A stretch of DNA of 64,000 nucleotides from Nakamurella deserti (lineage in GTDB: Bacteria > Actinomycetota > Actinomycetes > Mycobacteriales > Nakamurellaceae): contig NZ_QCXS01000002.1 in NCBI RefSeq assembly GCF_003260015.1, positions 1,984,001-2,048,000 of the forward strand, read 5' to 3'. The notes beneath the pieces were generated by a model. The model ran no database searches, had not been told where the DNA came from, and was given only the letters and a program-made list of their open reading frames with translations. Positions 24,465 through 36,879 of this stretch are shown in pieces. The stretch's first letter is position 1. Every line of letters begins with the position of its first letter. Made by a program: the position numbers and the translations under genes.

Positions 24465-25121
24465 TCACGAACCCCGGACGGCCTCGGCCAGCTTGCCGGG
24501 GATCTCGGCCGCGGTCATCCGCGGGCCGTAGGCGGGCCGGTCGCGCTCGAAACGCCAGCTCTCGGCCAGCGATCCGGCGTCGACGGCATCGAACCCGAAC
24601 TCGTCCAGCAGCGTGGTCACCAGCGCCTTCGCCTCGAGGTCGTCGCCGGCGACGGGCAGCGCGCGGCGGTCGGGCGTGTGGGCCGGGGTGCCGTCGGTGG
24701 TCAGTTCCTCGGCGCGGATGCCGTTGAAGACCTTGACGATCCGCGAGGTCGGCAGGTGCTCCTGGAGCATCTGCGACACCGTGGTGCGCTCCGCGTCGAG
24801 CTCGGCGATGTGACCGTCGCGCTCGAAGTAGTAGTTGTTCGTGTCGATGACGATCTTGCCGGCCAGCGGCTCGACGGGGACGTCACGGTAGTTCTTGAGC
24901 GGCACCGTGACCACGACCAGGTCTCCCGCGGCAGCCGCCTCGGCGGCGCTGCCGGCGGTGGCCGACGGGCCCAGCTCGGTCACCAGGTCGGTCAGGGTCT
25001 CGGGTCCCCGGGAGTTGCTGACGACGACGCGGTAGCCGGCGGCGACGGCGAGGCGGGCGAGTTGGCCGCCGATGTTGCCGGCGCCGATTAGTCCGATGGT
25101 GGTGAGTCCGGTGGCGGTCAT
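24465..25121 (-). CDS. NADPH:F420 oxidoreductase-like dinucleotide-binding protein
   Basis: A 218-residue single-domain Rossmann protein. GLIGAGNIGGQLARLA is the NADP site and SNSRGPE matches the F420-dependent NADP reductase group. VVTVPLKNYRDVP, NNYYFERDG and VAGDDLEAKALV follow family order. It may exchange electrons between NADPH and F420, but related proteins act on other substrates, so the reaction is a guess. ATG 25121 has GAAAGGTG ahead. It is divergent from mscR. Confidence 0.8.
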   Translation of the reverse strand: MTATGLTTIGLIGAGNIGGQLARLAVAAGYRVVVSNSRGPETLTDLVTELGPSATAGSAAEAAAAGDLVVVTVPLKNYRDVPVEPLAGKIVIDTNNYYFERDGHIAELDAERTTVSQMLQEHLPTSRIVKVFNGIRAEELTTDGTPAHTPDRRALPVAGDDLEAKALVTTLLDEFGFDAVDAGSLAESWRFERDRPAYGPRMTAAEIPGKLAEAVRGS

Positions 25122-25232: not shown

Positions 25233-25261
25233 GGGACAGCCTCCGGTGGGCCACCTAGAGT
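25233..25261 (+). promoter_or_regulatory. sigma-70-type promoter of mscR
   Basis: GGGACA at 25233-25238 and TAGAGT at 25256-25261 are separated by 17 bases. A GGAGG ribosome site precedes the GTG at 25294. Confidence 0.45.
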
Positions 25262-25293
25262 CAGGCCGTACCCGTCTCGCATCGGAGGTAGCT

Positions 25294-26382
25294 GTGCCGC
25301 ACGCAGTCAAGGCCGTCATCGCCCGCACCAAGGACGCACCCGTCGAGGTGGTCACCATCCACGTGCCCGACCCGGGCCCGGGTGAGGCGCTGGTGCAGGT
25401 CCAGGCGTGCGGCGTGTGCCACACCGACCTGCACTACAAGCTCGGCGGGATCGGGAACGACTACCCGTACCTGCTCGGCCACGAGGCCGCGGGCATCGTG
25501 GAGGCGGTCGGCGACGGCGTCACCGACGTCGCGCCCGGCGACTACGTGATCCTCAACTGGCGGGCGGTCTGCGGCGAGTGCCGGGCCTGCCGCCGCGGCC
25601 GCCCCTGGTACTGCTTCAACACCCACAACGCCACGCAGAAGATGACGCTCGAGGACGGCACCGAGCTGTCCCCCGCGCTCGGGATCGGCGCGTTCGCGGA
25701 GAAGACGCTGGTGCACGCGGGTCAGTGCACGAAGGTCGACCAGGAGGCGCCGGCCACGGTGGCCGGGCTGCTGGGCTGCGGCGTGATGGCCGGGCTGGGG
25801 GCGGCGATCAACACCGGTGCCGTCAGCAAGGAGGACACCGTCGCGGTCATCGGCTGCGGTGGCGTCGGTGACGCGGCGATCGCCGGCGCGAACCTCGTCG
25901 GCGCCCGGCGGATCATCGCCGTCGACCGCGACGAGCGGAAGCTGCAGTGGGCGAAGGAGTTCGGCGCCACCCACACCGTCCTGGTGGGCGAGGACACCGA
26001 CGTGGTCGCCGAGATCCAGGCGCTGACCGACGGTTTCGGCGCCGACGTGGTGATCGACGCGGTCGGCCGGCCCGAGACGTGGAAGCAGGCGTTCTACGGC
26101 CGCGACCTCGCGGGCACCGTCGTGCTCGTCGGGGTGCCCACGCCGACGATGCAGCTCGAGCTGCCGCTGCTGGACGTCTTCGGCCGCGGCGGATCGCTCA
26201 AGTCCTCCTGGTACGGCGACTGCCTGCCGTCCCGCGACTTCCCCGTGCTCATCGAGCTGTTCCTCGGCGGCCGGCTGCCGCTGGACAAGTTCGTCTCCGA
26301 GACCATCGGCCTCGACGCCATCGAGGAGGCCTTCGACAAGATGCACCGCGGTGAGGTCCTGCGGTCGGTCGTGACGCTCTAG
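25294..26382 (+). CDS. S-(hydroxymethyl)mycothiol dehydrogenase
   Basis: A 362-residue zinc-dependent alcohol dehydrogenase that oxidises the mycothiol-formaldehyde adduct (and reduces S-nitrosomycothiol in relatives such as MscR). Zinc ligands: [16 protein letters not shown], and the structural zinc cysteines in [15 protein letters not shown]. The [12 protein letters not shown] block binds NAD. The [15 protein letters not shown] stretch is characteristic of the mycothiol subgroup. GTG 25294 has a GGAGG site. The metallo-beta-lactamase that often follows it in mycobacteria is absent here. Confidence 0.9.
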
Positions 26383-26986: not shown

Positions 26987-27021
26987 GCAAACTTTGCAAA
27001 ATATAAACTTTGCTCTAGGCT
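26987..27021 (+). promoter_or_regulatory. promoter and paired operator-like repeat of the catabolic cluster
   Basis: AAACTTTGC occurs twice (26989-26997 and 27005-27013), 16 bases apart. The first copy is also half of a dyad GCAAA-C-TTTGC (26987-26997). TAGGCT at 27016-27021 fits a -10 element, with TTTGCA (26993-26998) 17 bases upstream. It is by far the most A/T-rich patch nearby. A leader of about 130 bases runs to the GTG at 27162. Confidence 0.65.
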
Positions 27022-27161
27022 GGTGCCGATCCCGTTCACAGCCAGGGTGCTGCGGCGGGCCCCTCGCACGCAGGACGTCGCGACAGCCCCACTCGTCGCG
27101 ACCCGTGCCGTCCTGTGCGACCGGCAACGCTCTCACTCAACGACGAGGCAGGAGTCCGAAG

Positions 27162-28331
27162 GTGTCCATCACCGAACTCGACCAGCCGGCGCAGATGTCG
27201 CCGACCGCGTCCCACCGCCGTCTGGGCGTCATCGACGTCGACTTCCACCCGATGCCCGTCCCCACCGACCCGCAGGTCGCCGACCACCTGCCGCAGCGTT
27301 GGCGCGACCACATCGCCCGGTACGGCCTCGGGTCGTTCGGCGGCGGCGTGTCCCCCGCACAGCGCGAGTTCACCCACCGTCTGGACGCGGTGGACGTCAA
27401 CGGCCGGGTCGGCGTCGACCCGGCGCTGGCCGTCGAGCAGGTCGTCGACCTCTACGACATGTCGGCCGTGGTGCTCACCTGCCCGCAGACCTACATCATC
27501 ACCAGCGGCGGCGTGAACATGCCGCACCAGCTGGCCACCGCGCTCTACCGCGCCTACAACGACGCCCTGGCCCACACCTGGTGCGGCTACGACGACCGGT
27601 TCCGGGCCTCCATCACCGTGGCCCGCGACATCCCCGGCGGCGAACGGGAGATCGAACGCTGCATGACCGAGCACGGCGACAAGTTCGTGCAGGTGCTGAT
27701 GTCCCCGTCCGGCGCCGATCCCATCGGCCGGCGCCGCTACTGGCCGATCTTCGAGGCCTGCGAGGCCTACGACATTCCGCTGGGATTCCACGTTCCCGGC
27801 ATGGGCCGCCAGCCCACCGGCGCCGGCAGGCAGAGCTTCTACGGCGAGATGCACGCCGCGTTCTCCGTGCTGCCGTTGTCCATGGTGCCGAGCCTGATCT
27901 TCGAGGGCGTCTTCGACCGTTTCCCCAGGCTCAAGATCGCCGCGCTGGAACTGGGCTGGGACTGGGTGGTGCCGTTCAGCTGGCGGCTGGACGCGGTGTA
28001 CGACAAGCACCGTGCCGACCTGCCGCACCTGTCGCGCCGGCCGTCGGAGTACCTGCGTGAGCACTTCTGGTTCAGCACCCAGCCCCTGGAGGAGCCCGAG
28101 CGGCCGGACATGACCGAGGGGGTGTTCCGGCTGTTCGAGGAGGCGGGTTTCGCCGACCGGCTGATGTTCTCCAGCGACTACCCGCACTGGGACTTCGACT
28201 CGCCGTACGAATCCGTCCCGGAGCACTTCCCCGAGGACCGCCGCCGCCGCATCCTGGGCGAGAACGCCAGTGCGCTCTACCGCCTGCCGCTCAAGCCCGG
28301 CCACGGGCTGCCGTCGCCGACGGACGCCTGA
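27162..28331 (+). CDS. amidohydrolase family 2 protein (ACMSD-like), catabolic cluster
   Basis: A 389-residue metal-dependent TIM-barrel hydrolase or decarboxylase. The first metal motif reads VIDVDFHPM (DxH rather than HxH, common in this subgroup), the barrel histidine is in GFHVPGMG, and the last acidic ligand is in SSDYPHWD; SMVPSLIFEGVFDRFPRLKIAALE is the family's conserved strand-helix block. Relatives decarboxylate aromatic acids or hydrolyse lactones. GTG 27162 follows GGAG; the open frame upstream to 26751 is low quality. It is the first gene of an operon of at least eight genes. Confidence 0.87.
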   Translation: MSITELDQPAQMSPTASHRRLGVIDVDFHPMPVPTDPQVADHLPQRWRDHIARYGLGSFGGGVSPAQREFTHRLDAVDVNGRVGVDPALAVEQVVDLYDMSAVVLTCPQTYIITSGGVNMPHQLATALYRAYNDALAHTWCGYDDRFRASITVARDIPGGEREIERCMTEHGDKFVQVLMSPSGADPIGRRRYWPIFEACEAYDIPLGFHVPGMGRQPTGAGRQSFYGEMHAAFSVLPLSMVPSLIFEGVFDRFPRLKIAALELGWDWVVPFSWRLDAVYDKHRADLPHLSRRPSEYLREHFWFSTQPLEEPERPDMTEGVFRLFEEAGFADRLMFSSDYPHWDFDSPYESVPEHFPEDRRRRILGENASALYRLPLKPGHGLPSPTDA

Positions 28332-28333
28332 CC

Positions 28334-29563
28334 GTGCTGCGCACCACGGCGCTCACCCGGCACCGGCTGGCCGGCGTCCTCAACTACGAGGACGCCCGGG
28401 CGGCGGCCCGGCGGGCGCTGCCGAAGTCGATCTTCCAGTACGTCGACGGCGGTTCCGAGGACGAGCTCACCCTGGGTTGGAACCGCCAGGCCTTCACCGA
28501 TCTCTCCTTCGCCCCGCGCGGGGCGGTGTGGGTACCCGACCCGAAGCTGGCTACCACGGTGCTCGGTGTCCCGGTGTCCATGCCGATCCTGACCGCACCG
28601 TGCGGCGGCATGCGGCTCATCCATCCGGACGGCGACCTCGGCATCGCCCGGGCCGCCCACCTGGCGGAGACCGTCCACGTGTCGACGTCGGCGTCCGGGT
28701 TCTCGCTGGAGCAGATCGCGGAGGTGCCGGGCCCGAAGTTCTTCCAGGCGTACAGGTTCTCGAATCAGGAGGCGATGAAGTCGCTGGTGCGTCGGGCCGA
28801 CGCCGCCGGGTACGCCGGCCTGGTCGCCACCATCGACACGAGTGTGGGCGGGAACCGGGAACGGGACTTCCGCAACGGCTTCAGCTACAACATGCGGATC
28901 AACCTGCGCAACGTCGTGAAGATGACGCCGCGGGTCATCGGTCATCCGGGGTGGGTCTACCGCTTCACCCGCGACGGCATGCCGTTCCAGCTGCCCAACA
29001 CCGCGGACATCACCCCGGACGGCAGACCGATGGAGCTCTCCGCGCTGACCCGCACCGGCGCGGAGTCCCACTCACCGGACTGGGACGACATCGCCTGGAT
29101 GCGGGCCCACTGGGACGGCCCGCTGGTGGTCAAGGGCGTGCTGACGGTGGCCGATGCCCGGCGGGCCCGGGCCCTCGGGGCCGACGGCATCATCGTGTCC
29201 AACCACGGCGGCCGGCAGCTCGACGGAGCTCCGGCCACCCTGCGGGCGTTGCCCCGCATCGTCGACGCGGTCGGCGACCACGTGGAGATCGTGCTGGACA
29301 GCGGGATCCGCCGCGGTGCCGACGTGGTGAAGGCCCTCGCCCTGGGCGCCCGCGCCGTCCTCGTCGGTCGCTACCCGGCCTTCGGGCTCGCGGTGGGCGG
29401 CACCGCCGGCGTGAGCCACGTCCTGGAGCGCATGCGCATCGAGCTGATCCGCACCCTGCAGCTGCTGGGCTGCGACGACATCCACACCCTGGACGCGAGC
29501 TGGGTGACCGACCGGTCGACCCGGCCGCTGTCCGAGACCGAACCGGAGCTGGTGACACGATGA
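28334..29563 (+). CDS. FMN-dependent alpha-hydroxyacid oxidase/dehydrogenase
   Basis: A 409-residue member of the glycolate oxidase/lactate dehydrogenase (LldD) group, oxidising an alpha-hydroxy acid to the 2-keto acid with FMN. Visible: the N-terminal block SIFQYVDGGSEDE, TAPCGGMRL, the catalytic SNHGGRQLDG (His base and Arg) and the FMN phosphate block DSGIRRGADVVKALALGARAV. It begins two bases after the amidohydrolase stop and ends inside the start of the Rieske gene (ATGA). Its substrate is presumably a pathway intermediate. Confidence 0.9.
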   Translation: MLRTTALTRHRLAGVLNYEDARAAARRALPKSIFQYVDGGSEDELTLGWNRQAFTDLSFAPRGAVWVPDPKLATTVLGVPVSMPILTAPCGGMRLIHPDGDLGIARAAHLAETVHVSTSASGFSLEQIAEVPGPKFFQAYRFSNQEAMKSLVRRADAAGYAGLVATIDTSVGGNRERDFRNGFSYNMRINLRNVVKMTPRVIGHPGWVYRFTRDGMPFQLPNTADITPDGRPMELSALTRTGAESHSPDWDDIAWMRAHWDGPLVVKGVLTVADARRARALGADGIIVSNHGGRQLDGAPATLRALPRIVDAVGDHVEIVLDSGIRRGADVVKALALGARAVLVGRYPAFGLAVGGTAGVSHVLERMRIELIRTLQLLGCDDIHTLDASWVTDRSTRPLSETEPELVTR

Positions 29564-30225
29564 CCGAACCGACGACTCCCGCACCCGGCACCGAGGCTGC
29601 GGCCAGGGCCCGGAAGCCCCAGCGCTACGTGGTCGGGCGGGTCGAGGACTTCCCCGACTCCGGACGGCTGCTGGTCGAGGTCAACGGCCGCGAGATCGGC
29701 GTGTTCCGGGTCGACGGGGAGTTCCACGCGGTGCTCAACCGCTGCCCGCACCTGGGCGGCCCACTGTGCTACGGCCAGATCGTCAGCAAGGTGAGCTCCC
29801 CCGCCCCGGGCATCGTCACCCTCGACCGGTCGCAGACCCTGCTGACCTGCCCGTTCCACAACTGGGAGTTCGACATCCGTACCGGGCAGTCGTACTTCGA
29901 TCCGCACAACCTGTCCGCGCGGCCGTTCCCCATCGGGGTCGAGACCGGCACCGACCTCGAGCCCGACCTGCAGTCCGGGGTGGCGGGCATGGTTCCCGGG
30001 CCGTACTGGGCCGAGAAGATCGACGTCGACGTCGAGGAGCAGTACATCGTGCTGACCCTCAAGGCACCGTCCCGACGCCGCGCCGCCACCGCGGCGGACG
30101 GCCCGGCGGACGCGGCCGCCACCGGTCCGACCGCCGCCGCACCGGTCGAGCCGCGGGTCCCCCGCCCCCAGGCCGTCACCGAAGCCGGATCGGCCCCCGC
30201 ACCCACCCGGCCCGCCGCTTCCTGA
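29560..30225 (+). CDS. stand-alone Rieske [2Fe-2S] protein
   Basis: A 221-residue Rieske ferredoxin-like protein. The cluster ligands are C62-P-H64 and C97-PF-H100. The spacing between the two ligand pairs (32 residues) is about twice that of ring-hydroxylating oxygenases (15-17). There is no mononuclear-iron catalytic domain; the C-terminal 50 residues are an Ala/Pro-rich tail. It is therefore an electron carrier or a regulatory subunit rather than a full oxygenase. It overlaps the oxidase gene (ATGA) and is followed 32 bases later by a second amidohydrolase. It may accept electrons from the reductase and ferredoxin encoded downstream. Confidence 0.85.
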   Translation: MTEPTTPAPGTEAAARARKPQRYVVGRVEDFPDSGRLLVEVNGREIGVFRVDGEFHAVLNRCPHLGGPLCYGQIVSKVSSPAPGIVTLDRSQTLLTCPFHNWEFDIRTGQSYFDPHNLSARPFPIGVETGTDLEPDLQSGVAGMVPGPYWAEKIDVDVEEQYIVLTLKAPSRRRAATAADGPADAAATGPTAAAPVEPRVPRPQAVTEAGSAPAPTRPAAS

Positions 30226-30257
30226 GCGCGGCCACCCCTCTCGCGAAGGACCAGACA

Positions 30258-31343
30258 ATGACGACTGTTCTCCCGCAGGCCACCCGGCCCTCCTCCTGGA
30301 CCGGCGCGGTCATCGACTGCGACGTGCACGCCAACGTCCCGACACTCGACGCGATCCTGCCCTACCTGGACCCGGTGTGGCAGGAGGCGACCCGCGAACG
30401 CGGCTGGCACGGCCCCACCGGGCCGGCGTTGAGCTATCCGCCGGGCGCACCCACCACCGCCCGCCCGGAGTGGATCCAGGCCGACGGCACCAGCGCCACC
30501 CGGGTGGAGCTGCTGCAGCACCAGGTCCTGGAACCGTGGCGGACCGAGAAGGCCGTCCTCAACTGCTATTACGGGGTTGACTCGCTGCGGCACCCCGACT
30601 GGGCGCCGGCCCTGGCCCGCGCGGTCAACGACTGGATGGTCGCCGAGTGGTTCGCCGCCGACGAACGGCTGGTCGGATCGCTCGTCATCCCCGCCCGTGA
30701 CCCGCAGGCCGCGGCGGCCGAGATCGACCGCGTGGGCGGGCATCCGCAGTTCAAGCAGGTGATGCTGCCGGTCCGGTCCGAGCGGCTCTACGGCCAGCGT
30801 TACTTCCACCCGATCTACGAGGCGGCCGCCCGGCACGACCTGGTGCTCGGCCTGCACTGGGGCGGGACCACCGAGGACGCGCCGTCACCCACCGGGTACG
30901 CGGGCCATTTCGCCGAGGAGTACGCGGTCGAGACGCAGCTGTACCTGGCCCAACTCACCAGCGTCGTCTTCGAGGGCGTGTTCCAGAAGTTCCCCACCCT
31001 CCGCTTCGCCGTGCTGGAGGGCGGTTTCACCTGGGTCCCGACCTGGGGGTGGAGCATGAACAAGAAGTGGAAGGGCCTCCGTCGCGACTTCCCGTGGTTG
31101 GATCGGCTCCCGCTGGACGTCGTCCGCGACCACATCCGGTTCTCCGTCGCCCCGTCCGACCTCGGCTCGGTCGCGCAGACCCGGACGATCGTCGAGTGGC
31201 TCGGGTCCGAGGACATCCTGATGTTCGCCACCGACTACCCGCACCGGCACGACGACGACCTGGAGAAGCTGCTCGAGGCGGTGCCGGACACCATGCGCCC
31301 GAAGCTGATGGCCGAGTCGGCCCGGCAGTGGTACCGGCTGTGA
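30258..31343 (+). CDS. second amidohydrolase family 2 protein
   Basis: A 361-residue paralogue-type TIM-barrel amidohydrolase. The first metal motif is VIDCDVHANVP, the middle histidine is in GLHWGGT and the last acidic ligand in ATDYPHRHDDD. The strand-helix block TSVVFEGVFQKFPTLRFAVLE aligns with the same block of the first amidohydrolase gene. GAAGGA precedes the ATG. It overlaps the aldolase gene (GTGA). Two different amidohydrolases in one operon suggest two hydrolytic or decarboxylation steps. Confidence 0.87.
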   Translation: MTTVLPQATRPSSWTGAVIDCDVHANVPTLDAILPYLDPVWQEATRERGWHGPTGPALSYPPGAPTTARPEWIQADGTSATRVELLQHQVLEPWRTEKAVLNCYYGVDSLRHPDWAPALARAVNDWMVAEWFAADERLVGSLVIPARDPQAAAAEIDRVGGHPQFKQVMLPVRSERLYGQRYFHPIYEAAARHDLVLGLHWGGTTEDAPSPTGYAGHFAEEYAVETQLYLAQLTSVVFEGVFQKFPTLRFAVLEGGFTWVPTWGWSMNKKWKGLRRDFPWLDRLPLDVVRDHIRFSVAPSDLGSVAQTRTIVEWLGSEDILMFATDYPHRHDDDLEKLLEAVPDTMRPKLMAESARQWYRL

Positions 31344-32095
31344 GCCGGAACCGGTTGCGCGACCGGCTGTCCGAGGGGCGCGCCGCCACCGGTCTGTCCT
31401 GCGTGCTGGGTGACGCGCAGATCGCCGAGGAGTTCACCGTCGCCGGGTACGACTACGTCTACCTCGACCAGCAGCACGGCCTCATCCCCGCCGAGCGTCT
31501 GGTGCCGATGCTGCGTGCCCTGGCCCGGGGCACGGCCACGCCCCTGGTCAGGGTGGCGGGCAACGACGCGACCCTGATCGGCCAGGCCCTGGACGCCGGC
31601 GCCGAGGGCGTCATCGTGCCCATGGTCGACACCGCCGGCGACGCCGCCCGCGCCGCGGCCGCCTGCCGGTACTTCCCGGACGGCACCCGCAGCTGGGGAC
31701 CGGTCCGCGCCACCCACGGCCTCGGCGGTGACCCGGCCACCGTCAACGGTCAGGTGATGTGCCTGGTGATGATCGAGACCGCCACCGCCGTGGACGATGT
31801 CGACGCCATCGTGGCCACCCCCGGCGTCGACGGCGTGTACATCGGACCCGCCGACCTCTCGGTCAGTCTGGGCGGCGCGCCCACCGGTATCGAGGCGGCC
31901 ACCGAGCCGGCCCTGCTCGACGCCGTCCGGGCCATCCGGGAGGCCTGCGCACGGCACGGCAAGGTCACCGCCATCACCGGTGTCCCGGCCACCCGCCACG
32001 CCGAGGGATTCGGCATGGTCACCGCCGGTTCCGACATCGGCTTCATCCGGGCGTCCCTCGCGGCGCTCGCCCACACCCCAGGAGGACCGGCATGA
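31340..32095 (+). CDS. HpcH/HpaI family aldolase
   Basis: A 251-residue class II (metal) aldolase of the 2-keto-3-deoxy-sugar-acid / 4-hydroxy-2-oxoheptanedioate group, releasing pyruvate and an aldehyde. Conserved: VYLDQQHG, AGAEGVIVPMVDT, MIETATAVDD (metal Glu) and GPADLSVSLG. GTG 31340 overlaps the stop of the upstream amidohydrolase. It is likely the carbon-carbon cleavage step of the pathway. Confidence 0.88.
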   Translation: MSRNRLRDRLSEGRAATGLSCVLGDAQIAEEFTVAGYDYVYLDQQHGLIPAERLVPMLRALARGTATPLVRVAGNDATLIGQALDAGAEGVIVPMVDTAGDAARAAAACRYFPDGTRSWGPVRATHGLGGDPATVNGQVMCLVMIETATAVDDVDAIVATPGVDGVYIGPADLSVSLGGAPTGIEAATEPALLDAVRAIREACARHGKVTAITGVPATRHAEGFGMVTAGSDIGFIRASLAALAHTPGGPA

Positions 32096-33069
32096 CCACC
32101 GTCGACACCGTCAACGGCCCCGTCGAACTCGGCGCGATCGGCCGCACGCTCACCCACGAGCACATCTTCACCAAGAACCCCGAGATCGAGGAGGGCTGGC
32201 CCGACCCGGAATGGGAGGGTGAGGACGCCATGGTCGCCAAGGCCGTCGACACCCTCGACGAGCTCAAGACCCTCGGCATCGAGACCATCATCGACCTCAC
32301 GGTTCCCGGACTCGGGCGGTCGATCCCGCGCATCCAGCGGGTGGCCGCGGCCAGCGCGGTGAACATCGTGGTGGCCACCGGTTATTACACCTTCAACGCG
32401 CTGCCCACCTTCTTCCAGACCCACGGCCCCGGCCTGATGGTCGACATGGACGACCCGATGCCGGCGCTGTTCATCCGTGACCTCACCACCGGCATCGGTG
32501 ACACCGGAGTCAAGGCGGTCATGATCAAGGTGGCCACCGACGAACCCGGGCTCACCCCGGGCGTCGAACGGGTGATGGGCGCCGCCGCCACCGCACACCT
32601 GGAGACGGGCGCCACCATCACCACGCACACCCACGCCCGCGAGTTCCGCGGCCGCGATCAGCAGGAGTTCTTCCGCGCGCGGGGCGTACCGCTGGAGCAT
32701 GTGCTGATCGGCCACTCCGGGGACAGCACCGACCTGGACTACCTGCGCGAGATGATGGACAACGGCTGCACTCTCGGCATGGACCGGTTCGGCATGGTCT
32801 CGATGCGCAGTGACGAGGAGCGGGTGGACACCGTCGTGCGCCTGGTCGAGATGGGGTACGCGGAGAAGCTCACGCTGTCCCACGACGCGGGGGTCTTCAG
32901 CATCAACACCCCGCCGTCCTTCCGGCGACGGGAGTCCCCGAACTGGAACCACGCCCACATCTCACGGGACATCCTCCCCCAGCTCCGGGAGCGGGGCGTC
33001 TCCGACGCCGACATCGACCAGATGATGATCACCAACGCGGCGCGCATCCTCGTCGGGGCGCGGAGCTGA
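32092..33069 (+). CDS. phosphotriesterase-like lactonase/hydrolase
   Basis: A 325-residue binuclear-metal hydrolase. All expected metal ligands are visible: LTHEHIF (HxH), VMIKVATDE (the carboxylated lysine), TTHTHA, IGHSGD and LSHDAGVF. Members hydrolyse lactones or phosphate esters. It overlaps the aldolase stop (ATGA). A lactone-opening step in the pathway is plausible but not shown. Confidence 0.88.
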   Translation: MTTVDTVNGPVELGAIGRTLTHEHIFTKNPEIEEGWPDPEWEGEDAMVAKAVDTLDELKTLGIETIIDLTVPGLGRSIPRIQRVAAASAVNIVVATGYYTFNALPTFFQTHGPGLMVDMDDPMPALFIRDLTTGIGDTGVKAVMIKVATDEPGLTPGVERVMGAAATAHLETGATITTHTHAREFRGRDQQEFFRARGVPLEHVLIGHSGDSTDLDYLREMMDNGCTLGMDRFGMVSMRSDEERVDTVVRLVEMGYAEKLTLSHDAGVFSINTPPSFRRRESPNWNHAHISRDILPQLRERGVSDADIDQMMITNAARILVGARS

Positions 33070-33071
33070 CC

Positions 33072-33395
33072 GTGCCCACCATCACCTACCACCACAGTGA
33101 CGGCTCCGTCGACGAGATCGACGTGGTGCCGGGCACTTCCGTGATGCGCGGAGCCGTGGCCGGCGGGATCTCCGGCATCGTCGGCGAGTGCGGCGGTCAG
33201 GCCATCTGCGCCACCTGCCATGTCTACGTGCGGCCGGAGTACCTCCCCGCCCTGCCGCCGCCCTCCGACGACGAGGAGGAGATGCTCGAGGAGACCGCGG
33301 CGCCGCGGGACCCCGAACGCTCCCGGCTGGGCTGCCAGCTCAAGACCGGGCCCCGCCTCGAGCGCATCGTGGTCGACGTGCCGGAGGAGCAGTGA
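33072..33395 (+). CDS. adrenodoxin-type [2Fe-2S] ferredoxin
   Basis: A 107-residue plant/adrenodoxin-type ferredoxin. Cluster ligands are C40, C46, C49 and C88 (ECGGQAICATC and LGC). The ECGG and CATCHVYV blocks match bacterial ferredoxins that serve P450s or hydroxylases. Two bases separate its GTG from the preceding stop, and its own stop overlaps the reductase start (GTGA). Its terminal acceptor is not encoded next to it. Confidence 0.92.
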   Translation: MPTITYHHSDGSVDEIDVVPGTSVMRGAVAGGISGIVGECGGQAICATCHVYVRPEYLPALPPPSDDEEEMLEETAAPRDPERSRLGCQLKTGPRLERIVVDVPEEQ

Positions 33396-34654
33396 CCGGC
33401 GGGCGGCGCGTCGTCGTCGTCGGCAGCGGGCAGAGCGGCATCCAGCTCGTGGACTCGCTGCGCAGCGAGGGTTTCGACGGGGACGTCGACCTCTTCGGCG
33501 ACGAGCCCCATCTGCCCTACCAGCGGCCACCACTGTCCAAGGACTTCCTGGCCGTCGCCGGCGGCGACACCGGCGGCGGAGGCACCGCGCTACCGCTGCG
33601 TGCGGAGAGGTTCTTCGCCGACCGCGCCGTCACCTTCCACCGGGGCGTCGCCGTCGCCGCCGTCGCCACGGCGGCCGGCACCGTCGCCACGGCGGACGGA
33701 CACGTCCTCGCCTACGACGACCTGGTGCTCGCCACCGGCGCCCGCAACCGGGAGCTGCGCATCCCGGGCGCCGACCTGGCGGGAGTGCACTCGCTGCGCA
33801 CCCTGGACGACGCCGTCCGCCTGCAGTCCGAGCTGCGGACCGCCCGCCGAGCGCTGGTCGTCGGAGCCGGGTTCATCGGTCTGGAGTTCGCCGCGTCCGC
33901 CCGCGCCCACGGAGTGGAGGTGACCGTGCTCGAGCTCGCGCCCCGGATGATGGGACGTGTGCTGTCTCCCGAGATGTCGGACCACTTCCACGAGCTGCAC
34001 GCCGCCGGTGGGGTCCGGACGCACTTCGGCGAGGGCATCACCGAACTCCGCGGCGAGGACGGCCGGGTGACCACCGGGGTCGGCACCTCCGGCACGGCGT
34101 ACCCGGCCGACCTCGTCGTCGTCGGGGTCGGGGTGGTACCCAGCACCGGACTGGCCCAGCAGGCCGGGCTCGCCGTCGGCAACGGCATCGTGGTCGACGA
34201 GTACCTGCGGACCGGCGATCCGCACATCTGGGCGCTGGGCGACTGTTGCGCCTTCCCCGACGCCCGCACCGGGGAACTCGTCCGGTTGGAGTCGGTGCAG
34301 AACGCGGTGGACCAGGCCAAGACCCTGGCCCGCACCCTGGCCGGCACGCCCACGCCGTACACCGCCACCCCGTGGTTCTGGTCCCACCAGGGTGAGAACC
34401 GCCTCCAGATCGCCGGTCTCATCCCGACCGACGCCGATTCGGTCCGCCGTGGTGATCCCGCGGGCGGGTCGTTCTCCGTGTTCCGGTTCGTCGCCGGCGC
34501 CTTCGCCGGGGCCGAGTCGGTGAACAGCGCCGCGGACCACCTGGCCGCCCGGCGCATCCTGGACCGCCGTCTCCCCCTCACCCCGGCCGAGGCGGCCGAT
34601 CCCGCGTTCGACCTCAAGGCGTACTCCCGCACCACGTCCGTGCCGGCCGCCTGA
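33392..34654 (+). CDS. FAD-dependent NAD(P)H:ferredoxin reductase
   Basis: A 420-residue reductase of the putidaredoxin reductase group. VVVVGSGQSGIQ is the first nucleotide loop, PLSKDFL the conserved FAD-side block, LVVGAGFIGLEFAA the NADH loop, and WALGDCCAFP the FAD-binding Asp. It follows and overlaps the ferredoxin gene, so the pair forms an electron chain from NAD(P)H. No P450 or oxygenase alpha subunit is in the cluster. Confidence 0.92.
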   Translation: MTGGRRVVVVGSGQSGIQLVDSLRSEGFDGDVDLFGDEPHLPYQRPPLSKDFLAVAGGDTGGGGTALPLRAERFFADRAVTFHRGVAVAAVATAAGTVATADGHVLAYDDLVLATGARNRELRIPGADLAGVHSLRTLDDAVRLQSELRTARRALVVGAGFIGLEFAASARAHGVEVTVLELAPRMMGRVLSPEMSDHFHELHAAGGVRTHFGEGITELRGEDGRVTTGVGTSGTAYPADLVVVGVGVVPSTGLAQQAGLAVGNGIVVDEYLRTGDPHIWALGDCCAFPDARTGELVRLESVQNAVDQAKTLARTLAGTPTPYTATPWFWSHQGENRLQIAGLIPTDADSVRRGDPAGGSFSVFRFVAGAFAGAESVNSAADHLAARRILDRRLPLTPAEAADPAFDLKAYSRTTSVPAA

Positions 34655-34752
34655 CCCGCGTCCGGTCCCGCTGTCCTGCACCACCCCAGCGGCTCCTCCA
34701 CCGGGACGAGTCCGCCGCCCAGCACCCTTCCCGCGACGCAATGGAGGATCCC

Positions 34753-36090
34753 GTGGACACGACGTCGTCTCCCGGCAGCACGGCACTGAAGAACGACGCG
34801 ACCGACCCCCTGGACCCGACACGACGGCGGCAGATCCGCCGCGTCCTGGTGTCCAGCTTCATCGGCTCGCTCATCGAGTGGTACGACTTCTATCTCTTCG
34901 GGCTGGCGTCGGCGCTGGTGTTCAACCAGCTCTTCTTCCCCGACTTCAGCAACGCCGCCGGCACTCTCGCCTCGTTCGCCACCCTGGCCATCGGGTTCTT
35001 CGCCCGCCCGGTCGGCGGGGCCATCTGGGGGCACTACGGGGACAAGCTGGGCCGCAAGAAGATGCTCGTGCTCTCCATCATCCTGATGGGCGTCGGCACG
35101 ACGCTGATCGGGCTGCTGCCGACCTACGCCCAGATCGGGATCGCCGCGCCCATCCTGCTCGTCGTGCTGCGCACCCTGCAGGGTGTCGCCGCGGGCGGGG
35201 AATGGGGCGGGGCGGTCCTCATCGCCATGGAGCACTCCCGGAGTCGCCGCGGTTTCTCCACCAGCATCCCGCAGATGGGACTCACCGGCGGGATCCTGCT
35301 GGCCACCGGGGTTTTCGCGTTGCTCACCCAGCTGCCGCCGGACGCGCTGCTGAGCTGGGGCTGGCGGCTGCCCTTCATCCTGTCCTCGGTGCTGGTGGTC
35401 GTCGGGTTGTGGATCCGGCTCGGTGTGCACGAGAGCCCGGTCTTCCTCGAGGCCCAGAAGAACGCCGACACCGCCGACGGCGAGCGCGCCCCCATCATCG
35501 AGGTCTTCCGCCACCCGAAGACCCTCCTGATCGCCATCGCCCTGGTGGTCGGTCCGTTCGCGGTCAGCTCCATCTACTCGACCTACGCCGCCGCCTACGG
35601 ACTGCAGACCGGGTTCACCCGGTCGGAGATGTCCTCGGTGGTCCTGCTCAGCGCGGCCATCGGCTTCCTCGGGCAACCGATCTTCGGGACGCTCTCGGAC
35701 CACTGGGGCCGGCGCAACGTCACCCTGATCGGGCTGGCCATGCAGGCCGTCAGCGTCGTGTTCCTGTTCAACGACCTCAACTCCGGGAACCTGGGCGCGC
35801 TCTACATCTCGATGGCGGCCATCGCCATCGGACACTCCATCTGCTACAGCCCGGTGGCCGCGTGGCTGGGCGAGCTGTTCCCCACCCGCCTGCGGTACAC
35901 CGGCGCGTCGCTGGGCTACCAGCTGGCCGGGTCCATCGGCGGTCTCACCCCGCTGATCTGCGCGGCCCTGCTGATCGCCGGCGGTGGCACCTTCAACACC
36001 GGGTACATCGTGGCCTTCGGGATCGCGGTCAACGTGCTGGCGTTCGTGGCCGCGATGGCCGCCCGGGAGACGTCCCGGGACGTCCTGTAG
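34753..36090 (+). CDS. MFS transporter, metabolite:H+ symporter (MHS) type
   Basis: A 445-residue 12-helix proton-coupled importer for small organic acids. The MHS signatures IEWYDFYLFGLAS (helix 1), RPVGGAIWGHYGDKLGRKK (loop 2-3) and LRTLQGVAAGGEWGGA (helix 4) are clear. GTG 34753 is preferred over ATG 34741 because GGAGGA stands at 34743-34748. A gap of 98 bases precedes it, so it may also have its own promoter. It would import the compound the cluster degrades. Confidence 0.88.
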   Translation: MDTTSSPGSTALKNDATDPLDPTRRRQIRRVLVSSFIGSLIEWYDFYLFGLASALVFNQLFFPDFSNAAGTLASFATLAIGFFARPVGGAIWGHYGDKLGRKKMLVLSIILMGVGTTLIGLLPTYAQIGIAAPILLVVLRTLQGVAAGGEWGGAVLIAMEHSRSRRGFSTSIPQMGLTGGILLATGVFALLTQLPPDALLSWGWRLPFILSSVLVVVGLWIRLGVHESPVFLEAQKNADTADGERAPIIEVFRHPKTLLIAIALVVGPFAVSSIYSTYAAAYGLQTGFTRSEMSSVVLLSAAIGFLGQPIFGTLSDHWGRRNVTLIGLAMQAVSVVFLFNDLNSGNLGALYISMAAIAIGHSICYSPVAAWLGELFPTRLRYTGASLGYQLAGSIGGLTPLICAALLIAGGGTFNTGYIVAFGIAVNVLAFVAAMAARETSRDVL

Positions 36091-36096
36091 GGCGGC

Positions 36097-36879
36097 TCAC
36101 CCGTCCTGTGGGCCGGCGCCGGCGGATGCCGGGCCGGCCCACAGGCCCAACTGGTCCAGCTGGGAGATGAGCAGCTCACCGGTCCGCACGAAGTGGTCCT
36201 CCATCAACTCGCCCGCCCGGTGGGCGTCGCCGGCCTCCATCGCCTCGACGATCGGTGTGTGACCGTGCCGGTTGACCTCCGCCCAGCCGGGAACGCTCTG
36301 GAACGCCTCGTTGAACCGCAGGGGTACCGACCGGATGGCCACATCGGCGAACCAGACCAGTCGGTGGGCGCCCGACACCGCGTGGACCGCGGAGTGGAAC
36401 TGCTCGTTGAGGTCCAGGGCGGTCTGGCTGTGGTGGTCCTCCAGCGCGGTCAGGGCGCTGTTGAGGGCACGGACCTCCGCGAACTGGGCCGTCGTGGCCC
36501 GTTGGACGGCGCGGGTGGCGATCTCGCCCTCGATGTGGGCCCACACGTGGTAGGTGTCGCGCAGGTCCGCACGGTCCAGCGGAGCGACCCAGAAACCCCG
36601 GTGCGGCTCGTGGACCAACCACCCGTCCTGGGACAGCTGGAACAGGGCCTGGCGCACCGGGGTGGTGCTCATCCCCATCAACTCCGACAGCCGCGTCAGA
36701 CCCAACCGCTCGCCGGGACGGACGTCACCGCTGAGGATCAGGTCCCGCACGACCCCGACGACGGCGCCGCCCAACAACTCGCGCTTGCCCGGTGTCCGCA
36801 CCGCGTTCCTTCCGATCGCCCCCCGTGGGCCCTCCGGCGACGGCCGACCTGCCCGACCGCGGCGAGGCGCCCCGGACAT
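36097..36879 (-). CDS. GntR family regulator (FCD/FadR subgroup)
   Basis: A 260-residue repressor-type regulator. A Pro/Arg/Gly-rich lead of about 30 residues precedes the winged helix (PGERLGLTRLSELMGMSTTPVRQALFQLSQDG), followed by an all-helical FCD ligand domain with metal-binding-type residues in EQFHSAVHAVSGA. It is convergent with the transporter gene and stops six bases after it. It probably controls the cluster; the AAACTTTGC pair at 26987-27021 is a candidate site. The long open frame upstream to 37284 is not part of it. Confidence 0.85.
   Translation of the reverse strand: MSGAPRRGRAGRPSPEGPRGAIGRNAVRTPGKRELLGGAVVGVVRDLILSGDVRPGERLGLTRLSELMGMSTTPVRQALFQLSQDGWLVHEPHRGFWVAPLDRADLRDTYHVWAHIEGEIATRAVQRATTAQFAEVRALNSALTALEDHHSQTALDLNEQFHSAVHAVSGAHRLVWFADVAIRSVPLRFNEAFQSVPGWAEVNRHGHTPIVEAMEAGDAHRAGELMEDHFVRTGELLISQLDQLGLWAGPASAGAGPQDG
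36106..36144. terminator. 12-bp inverted repeat at the end of the catabolic cluster
   Basis: CTGTGGGCCGGC at 36106-36117 pairs with GCCGGCCCACAG at 36133-36144 around a 15-base loop. It lies 16 bases past the transporter stop and inside the last codons of the GntR gene, so it could end the plus-strand operon. Confidence 0.6.

Follow-up and report, generated by a model that had tools for sequence, protein, structure and literature searches.

The window analysed here is a stretch of 64,000 nucleotides of Nakamurella deserti (contig NZ_QCXS01000002.1, positions 1,984,001 to 2,048,000 of the forward strand; G000:C2:1984001-2048000), from a genome of 4.63 Mb in 6 contigs. It contains an operon of eight genes, which on balance appears to encode an AibH1H2-type monooxygenase of three components together with enzymes that would consume its product. 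The eight genes code for two amidohydrolase-family proteins (Ah1 and Ah2), an FMN oxidase (Hao), a Rieske protein, an aldolase (Ald), a phosphotriesterase (PTE)-like hydrolase, a ferredoxin (Fdx) and a ferredoxin reductase (FdR). The gene of a putative metabolite:H+ symporter (MHS) and a convergent GntR/FCD regulator gene follow.

In the proposed route, the compound taken up by the importer would be an organic acid and most likely one of the 2-hydroxy acids. Electrons from NADH would pass through FdR (FAD) and the [2Fe-2S] ferredoxin to the Rieske protein and from there to the dinuclear site of Ah1. Ah1, in complex with Ah2, would hydroxylate an unactivated C-H, most plausibly at C4, and the 2,4-dihydroxy acid would close to a 2-hydroxy-gamma-lactone. 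The PTE-like lactonase would open this lactone (or an ester), Hao would oxidize the 2-hydroxyl to a 2-keto group, and retro-aldol cleavage of the 4-hydroxy-2-keto acid by the class II aldolase would yield pyruvate plus an aldehyde or ketone. The GntR/FCD protein would regulate the operon, perhaps through a conserved block at 26987-27013.

We infer the substrate class, the order of the steps, the lactone intermediate, the electron path and the regulation. The route from C4 hydroxylation through the lactone and the 2-keto acid to pyruvate is a consistent proposal, and our confidence in it ranges from tentative to a little better than even, according to how many of its steps are included.

The amidohydrolase-family pair and its predicted electron chain

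The protein families, the metal-site residues, the subunit roles (assigned by resemblance) and the gene order were derived from comparison of sequences and models. For Ah1, the best solved relative was AibH2 (6m1w_B, E 2.8e-61), followed by 8sm7 (1.1e-60); for Ah2 it was AibH1 (6m1w_A, E 3.6e-68). Decarboxylases from this Pfam family matched far more weakly. Identity was 37% for both Ah1/AibH2 and Ah2/AibH1, and 28-31% for the crossed pairs. In Rhodococcus wratislaviensis, AibH1H2 is described as the hydroxylase component of 2-aminoisobutyrate monooxygenase (PMC7782822), and it reportedly requires a Mn/Fe cofactor (PMC10401708). Enzymes of this group are called amidohydrolase-related dinuclear oxygenases (AROs; PMC10811679).

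The metal ligands reported for AibH2 are Asp25, His27, His211, Glu265, Asp337 and His340, with Asp342 near them; according to the authors, only the dinuclear members conserve an acidic residue at 342, and AibH1 lacks it (PMC7782822). In an alignment of the copies found, the pattern of Ah1 was D,H,H,E,D,H,D, identical to that of AibH2. The pattern of Ah2 was D,H,H,E,D,H,H, identical to that of AibH1, with His at the position of AibH2 342. All six ligands and the acidic residue were present in 89 of 90 Ah1-type rows; the remaining row, unaligned at its start, lacked the first columns. The acidic residue was found in 9/86 Ah2-type rows, and the Ah2 of the window was not among them. In Saccharopolyspora spinosa, Ah2 had lost one of the ligands (DHSEDHH), as fits a non-catalytic role.

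An AlphaFold model of Ah1, built on an alignment of 19 rows, had a mean predicted local distance difference score (pLDDT) of 84.2 and a predicted template-modelling score (pTM) of 0.87. One stretch (L049) was excluded from the alignment because of a stop codon. The first 20 Foldseek matches were all ARO or AibH1H2 chains. When realigned, the eight best entries, all of them ARO or AibH1H2, gave Z 39.2-41.7 and root-mean-square deviations of 2.2-2.4 over 339-346 residues. The older AibH1H2 entries gave 37.8 (the AibH1 chain 6m1w_A) and 37.7 (6m2i_B), followed by PtmU3 (32.5), DitZ (31.8) and the best decarboxylase (30.7). A shared fold is by itself no proof of function; the argument for an ARO is carried by the ligand pattern and the Rieske neighbour. 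Genes of the Ah1, Ah2 and Rieske types were together in 67 of 85 loci.

For Ah1, the sequence and fold features of an ARO of the AibH2 type were found, namely the PF04909 fold, the six ligands, the acidic residue at the 342 position and a small Rieske protein of under 250 aa encoded nearby. That Ah1 and Ah2 form an ARO-type monooxygenase is well supported by sequence and model and appears highly probable; the pair is most likely an oxygenase rather than hydrolases or decarboxylases. The initial annotation had assigned hydrolysis or decarboxylation to the two proteins. This was not supported, given AibH2 and AibH1 as their best solved relatives and the full dinuclear site of Ah1.

Elsewhere, two adjacent Ah1-type copies were present in each of two Poribacteria loci (L023, L027), and one Ah1-type and two Ah2-type genes in each of two Caldilineaceae loci (L021, L050). 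The excluded stretch L049:7629-8720, delimited by tblastn in Pseudonocardia nigra, contained a stop codon, reflecting either a disrupted gene or an edge effect of the alignment.

The Rieske protein (221 aa) carried CPH at 62 and CPFH at 97, giving C-x-H...C-x2-H. Its gene adjoins ah2 and is separated from ah1 by one gene, hao. By analogy it would correspond to AibG, and it is the expected electron donor of the oxygenase. The best solved relatives of Fdx were 4ltu and putidaredoxin, and those of FdR were 3fg2, 3lxd, putidaredoxin reductase and the ferredoxin reductase of biphenyl dioxygenase. If Ah1 and Ah2 are an oxygenase, the Rieske protein, Fdx and FdR, to which the initial annotation gave no role, would be its electron chain. 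Electrons might pass along FdR-Fdx-Rieske or FdR-Rieske.

A cytochrome P450 was also considered as the client of Fdx and FdR, since an ARO cluster in genome G086 (L008:1868-9734) contains a P450 gene flanked by its ferredoxin reductase and Rieske genes. No P450 was found in the 64-kb window, and the nearest match in the genome was about 113 kb before the operon. The pair is thus without another obvious client nearby.

In S. spinosa, the place of the reductase was taken by a NuoF-like protein with Complex1_51K and NADH_4Fe-4S domains (L012:15801-17084), apparently the entry point of NADH. G086 and a Pseudonocardia bin (L015) had a reductase with NAD-binding and 2Fe-2S domains. This suggests that the ARO electron chain is exchangeable.

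Proposed pathway roles in related clusters and competing readings

The operon was syntenic in a congener (G042, locus L007), with 91% identity in Ah1. In S. spinosa NRRL 18395 (L012), which belongs to another family of the same order, the six genes ah1, hao, Rieske, ah2, aldolase and PTE were kept in the same order, with identities of 79%, 58-59%, 51%, 66%, 58% and 54%, respectively. The whole S. spinosa locus reads mhs, ah1, hao, Rieske, ah2, aldolase, PTE, NuoF-like and convergent gntR; neighbouring genes overlap by 4 bases at each of the five junctions from hao/Rieske to PTE/NuoF-like. The importer gene thus lies at opposite ends of the operon in the window and in S. spinosa. The S. spinosa locus has the same coordinates as that of G731, a genome assigned to the order of the window but to family f14. 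The shared order in a different family indicates that the operon spans two families, and the synteny in the two relatives that the association of the genes is more than chance.

The operon is rare and patchy. Ah1 was found at E <= 1e-60 in 4/249 genomes sampled from the order, at E <= 1e-75 in 2/17 of the genus and at E <= 1e-80 in 2/396 sampled from the phylum, the genome of the window being included in each count. From 586 confirmed stretches, the collection scan retained the 80 best. The PTE-containing set was present in three genomes (G000, G042 and S. spinosa) among the loci examined, and a PTE search of five named relatives was positive in S. spinosa only.

The enzymes of the later steps carried residues in keeping with their families. 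Hao contained the motifs FQAY, DTS, VVKG and NHGGRQ, which we take to be the catalytic Tyr/Asp/Lys/His/Arg motifs of FMN 2-hydroxy-acid oxidases. Its identification as the mycofactocin synthase MftD was rejected (TIGR03966, 329.1 bits against a cut-off of 470.85). The aldolase was closest among solved structures to HpcH/HpaI and the hydroxyketoacid aldolase group 7o5i/6r62, and scored under the cut-offs of four listed NCBIfam equivalogs. It contained H46, R71 and D85, presumably catalytic, and E146 and D171, presumably metal-binding, as in class II pyruvate aldolases.

The best solved relative of the PTE protein was the phosphotriesterase homology protein 4if2 (4.1e-97), followed by 4rdy (4.1e-57). 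Aligned with these were HEH 22, K146, H179/H181, H208 and D265, which we take to be the binuclear metal site, and GYYTF 97 and DRFG 231, presumably holding the lactonase-type Tyr and Arg. The importer, named MHS in the initial annotation, was an MFS protein by Pfam; the MHS model TIGR00883 was the best of its listed NCBIfam matches, at 387.5 bits under the cut-off of 443.45, and the shikimate transporter model gave 355 bits (cut-off 538). Its homologues in the clusters of S. spinosa and of G438, a genome from another family of the phylum, were 60% and 52% identical. A tblastn search of plasmids with Hao gave 6 records at 39-41% identity; a search with Ah1 gave 72 records, each below 60%.

In other ARO clusters, the same roles were filled by different families. 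The G438 cluster contained Rieske, ah2 and GntR/FCD genes, with ah1 on the other strand, and further an RraA-type aldolase, Hao (42%), an SMP-30/gluconolactonase-like protein and the MHS homologue. The G086 cluster (L008) contained ah1, FdR, P450, Rieske, ah2 and an NAD/2Fe-2S reductase. Encoded on the strand facing these were Hao (40%), an HpcH aldolase, a ferredoxin of small size that was named by eye, and a hydrolase of the cyclase family. A Pseudonocardia bin (L014) contained HpcH, Rieske, ah2, a PucR-type regulator, hao and ah1. Neighbouring genes in G042, G086, S. spinosa and G438 were called from GC content; some calls were in the wrong frame, and those around the named genes were verified.

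Across the ARO clusters that contain hao, the aldolase was HpcH or RraA, the hydrolase PTE, SMP-30/gluconolactonase or cyclase, and the reductase Fdx plus FdR, a NuoF-like protein or an NAD-binding and 2Fe-2S protein. The recurrence of the oxygenase, oxidase, aldolase and hydrolase roles while the families change is the main argument for the proposed chemistry.

An aldolase was present at 5/8 hao loci and 4/77 others (Fisher test, 1.9e-4; 1.1e-3 without the near-copy L007), a hydrolase at 4/8 and 2/77 (4.8e-4; 3.4e-3) and MHS at 4/8 and 1/77 (1.7e-4; 1.4e-3). Weak matches were scored as present in these counts, namely MHS in L014 at 23% and a cyclase at 28% in L012, a locus that counts anyway through its PTE. 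In a tree of 91 rows (Ah1 type plus AibH2), the 9 hao-linked rows, the window included, fell within one group of 12 with an SH-like approximate likelihood ratio (SH-aLRT) of 99; the other 3 were without a nearby hao. The hao label changed 4 times in the tree, against 8.8 in shuffles, and 0/500 shuffles were as low. The tree was made by a quick method with long-branch warnings, and its fine placement is unsure.

Several points weigh against the proposed route. The query proteins came partly from the hao loci themselves, so that the aldolase and hydrolase counts lean toward these loci. Three of the 8 hao loci (L013, L015 and L019, of which L013 and L019 are short stretches) had neither aldolase nor hydrolase, and L014 had no hydrolase with the queries used. 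The SMP-30 match was modest (80.6 bits), cyclase-family proteins also cleave amides, and the lactone step rests on families of broad substrate range. Hao may act ahead of the oxygenase. Finally, the reductase of the Aib system, AibF, is described as an FMN protein of 322 aa that carries a 2Fe-2S domain (PMC7782822, PMC10401708), whereas the window has a separate ferredoxin and FAD reductase.

One possibility, though a doubtful one, is that the ARO assignment is right and the order different. A lactone or ester would then be imported, and the PTE-like enzyme or Hao would act first, Hao on a 2-hydroxy lactone, with the ARO acting later or on the keto form before the aldolase. Such an oxidation has been described for the FMN-dependent L-pantolactone dehydrogenases of Nocardia, Amycolatopsis and Cnuibacter, which act on a 2-hydroxy lactone directly (PMC10384591). 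G086 also contains a module without a neighbouring ARO (L100:7675-10761), composed of HpcH, a cyclase-family hydrolase, a Hao 60% identical to that of the window and a second Hao-like gene (38%); no ARO match was found within the 20 kb examined. However, G086 has three ARO catalytic genes elsewhere, so that this module does not necessarily operate by itself. The order of the reactions cannot be read from that of the genes, either way.

It is unlikely that the ARO catalyses an N- or O-dealkylation instead of making a lactone precursor, with detoxification of the released aldehyde falling, for instance, to the mycothiol-dependent formaldehyde dehydrogenase encoded upstream. An ARO, SfbO, has been reported to dealkylate PIPES to sulfoacetaldehyde, but PIPES was a surrogate with a KM of 83 mM (PMC10811679). 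The upstream gene (25246-26382, + strand, ending 779 bases before the operon) matched S-(hydroxymethyl)mycothiol dehydrogenase at 675 bits (TIGR03451, cut-off 512.9). This dehydrogenase, however, had no match in the G042 and S. spinosa stretches examined, and it was dropped as a part of the operon; the upstream gene in G042 was aldo/keto-reductase-like instead (named by eye).

Very improbable is the reading in the initial annotation of Ah1 and Ah2 as ordinary mononuclear hydrolases or decarboxylases, with the Rieske protein and ferredoxin serving an oxygenase elsewhere: PF04909 includes such enzymes and both proteins weakly match 5-carboxyvanillate decarboxylase (2.3e-17 for Ah1 and 1.5e-14 for Ah2, the best among decarboxylases), but Ah1 has a full dinuclear site, an H2-like and an H1-like subunit are paired, the Rieske gene stands between ah1 and ah2 in three syntenic operons, and the Ah1 model fits AROs 7-11 Z units above the best decarboxylase.

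Gene layout and candidate regulatory block

Recomputed boundaries bore out the layout first described, of eight genes in one direction with ATGA or GTGA junctions followed by an importer and a convergent GntR gene, and Pfam concurred with the family given there for each of the ten genes. Four neighbours overlap by 4 bases (29560/29563 ATGA, 31340/31343 GTGA, 32092/32095 ATGA and 33392/33395 GTGA), and the gaps are 2 (28331/28334), 32 (30225/30258) and 2 bases (33069/33072). The importer gene starts 86 bases past the eighth gene, and the stop of the GntR gene lies 6 bases beyond its end. Among the NCBIfam matches listed (for FdR the best 25 of 55), none was above its cut-off for any of the ten genes, and so none of them has a curated exact function.

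Table 1. Features of the operon region, with positions in the window and Pfam matches
Feature	Position	Strand	Assignment	Pfam (bits)
Conserved AT-rich block GCAAACTTTGCAAAATATAAACTTTGC, 27 bases	26987..27013	+	Candidate operator and promoter	
ah1	27162..28331	+	AibH2-like, predicted catalytic subunit of a dinuclear (Mn/Fe or Fe/Fe) monooxygenase, from PF04909, metal-site pattern and predicted fold	PF04909 Amidohydro_2 (142)
hao	28334..29563	+	Predicted FMN-dependent 2-hydroxy-acid oxidase or dehydrogenase	PF01070 FMN_dh (405)
Rieske	29560..30225	+	AibG-like Rieske [2Fe-2S] ferredoxin, 221 aa	PF00355 Rieske (55)
ah2	30258..31343	+	AibH1-like, probably non-catalytic partner subunit; best solved relative AibH1	Amidohydro_2 (95)
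ald	31340..32095	+	Predicted HpcH/HpaI class II pyruvate aldolase	PF03328 HpcH_HpaI (118)
pte	32092..33069	+	Predicted hydrolase of the phosphotriesterase-like lactonase (PLL) type	PF02126 PTE (268)
fdx	33072..33395	+	Putidaredoxin-like [2Fe-2S] ferredoxin	Fer2 (30)
fdr	33392..34654	+	FAD ferredoxin reductase of the putidaredoxin-reductase/biphenyl dioxygenase reductase kind	Pyr_redox_2 (226), Reductase_C (85)
mhs	34741..36090	+	MFS protein, putative metabolite:H+ symporter and candidate substrate importer; TIGR00883 match under cut-off	MFS_1/Sugar_tr (108/107)
GntR/FCD regulator	36097..36879	-	Regulator; start uncertain (36879 ATG or an inner start)	PF00392 GntR (46), PF07729 FCD (64)

The block GCAAACTTTGCAAAATATAAACTTTGC lies 149-175 bases upstream of ah1, and the initial annotation began its region at the first base of it, 26987. 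It holds a perfect 11-base palindrome and a repeated AAACTTTGC, and TTGCAA and TAGGCT (TACGGT in G042) are separated by 16 bases, a promoter-like spacing. It matched once in the window at <=3 mismatches, and its first 15 bases matched once genome-wide at <=1 mismatch. A near copy, with one base changed and one missing, was present upstream of ah1 in G042, where the upstream region otherwise scarcely aligned, save for the bases right before the start codon. We predict from these sequence features that the block contains the promoter and an operator for the GntR/FCD protein.

Exact searches for the block motif in L012, L093, L014, L008 and L013 gave none; GntR genes are present in the L012 and L093 clusters too. 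A FadR-type operator pattern was also tried and set aside; it was absent from the stretches of the window and L007 that were searched and occurred once in the upstream stretch of L012. Farther upstream in the window, the gene at 24468-25121 (- strand) codes for an F420 reductase-like (npdG) protein (45 bits, under the cut-off of 149.8).

Comparison with described systems

The nearest described system is AibH1H2-AibG-AibF, which likewise has catalytic and non-catalytic PF04909 subunits, a small Rieske protein, an NADH-linked reductase and an importer in one actinobacterial cluster (PMC7782822, PMC10401708). The metal-site residues of Ah1 are those of AibH2; identity is 37% in each subunit. The Aib cluster is described with an amino-acid permease and a LysR regulator, and the window has an MFS symporter and GntR. 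The dehydrogenase and pyridoxal phosphate (PLP) genes reported for the Aib pathway (methylserine/aminomethylmalonate) had no Pfam match in the ten genes, in which the FMN oxidase, aldolase and lactonase are found instead. Aib catabolism itself was ruled out, as the reductase type, the downstream genes and the transporter and regulator families all differ.

SfbO and the other solved AROs (8sm6-8sm9), three of which are titled TruffO in PDB, are dinuclear PF04909 oxygenases found through Rieske neighbours (PMC10811679), and to these the Ah1 model aligned at Z 39-42. Their authors state that the natural substrates are not readily inferable from the neighbourhoods (PMC10811679), whereas here the putative consuming enzymes are attached. 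PtmU3, a diterpenoid hydroxylase, and LynB7, an oxidative decarboxylase, are also amidohydrolase-related dinuclear oxygenases, and their metal sites comprise three His, two Asp and one Glu (PMC10127204). Both are biosynthetic, unlike this predicted catabolic operon, and PtmU3 had the lower structural score given above. The word Rieske does not occur in the LynB7 paper (PMC10127204).

The L-pantolactone dehydrogenases, FMN-dependent bacterial enzymes with a 2-hydroxy gamma-lactone as substrate (PMC10384591), may be related to Hao. Pantolactone or pantoate was considered as a substrate on account of these enzymes but was not retained. To our knowledge, these dehydrogenases have not been linked to an ARO.

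The initial annotation knew of no described pathway with this gene set, and open-access full-text searches agreed: they gave no account of this operon, nor of any ARO combined with Hao, an aldolase and a lactonase; most subscription papers were outside these searches. A search for the gene set listed a paper on contaminant degradation (PMC11446756). The oxygenase class is known, and the attached pathway and electron chain are new within the open-access literature searched. From the scheme first proposed, the gene content still favours a single catabolic operon, the import of an organic acid, a 2-keto acid formed by the FMN enzyme, and cleavage to pyruvate and a carbonyl compound; the hydrolysis or decarboxylation by the amidohydrolases was not supported. 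We suggest, tentatively, an undescribed route in which a Mn/Fe (or cambialistic) ARO would start the attack on a 2-hydroxy acid by hydroxylating C4. Such a route may have arisen repeatedly from lactonases, aldolases and reductases that are unrelated to one another, here with a ferredoxin and FAD reductase acting through the Rieske protein.

In the operon and its relatives, the oxygenase genes co-occur with those of a predicted importer, 2-hydroxy-acid oxidase, pyruvate aldolase and lactonase-type hydrolase. With these, the substrate search need no longer cover small molecules in general and can be confined to a class of acids open to testing. A natural substrate besides 2-aminoisobutyrate for a manganese-using C-H monooxygenase could follow from this. 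An orphan oxygenase family, whose substrates are mostly unknown, would thereby gain a pathway to test.

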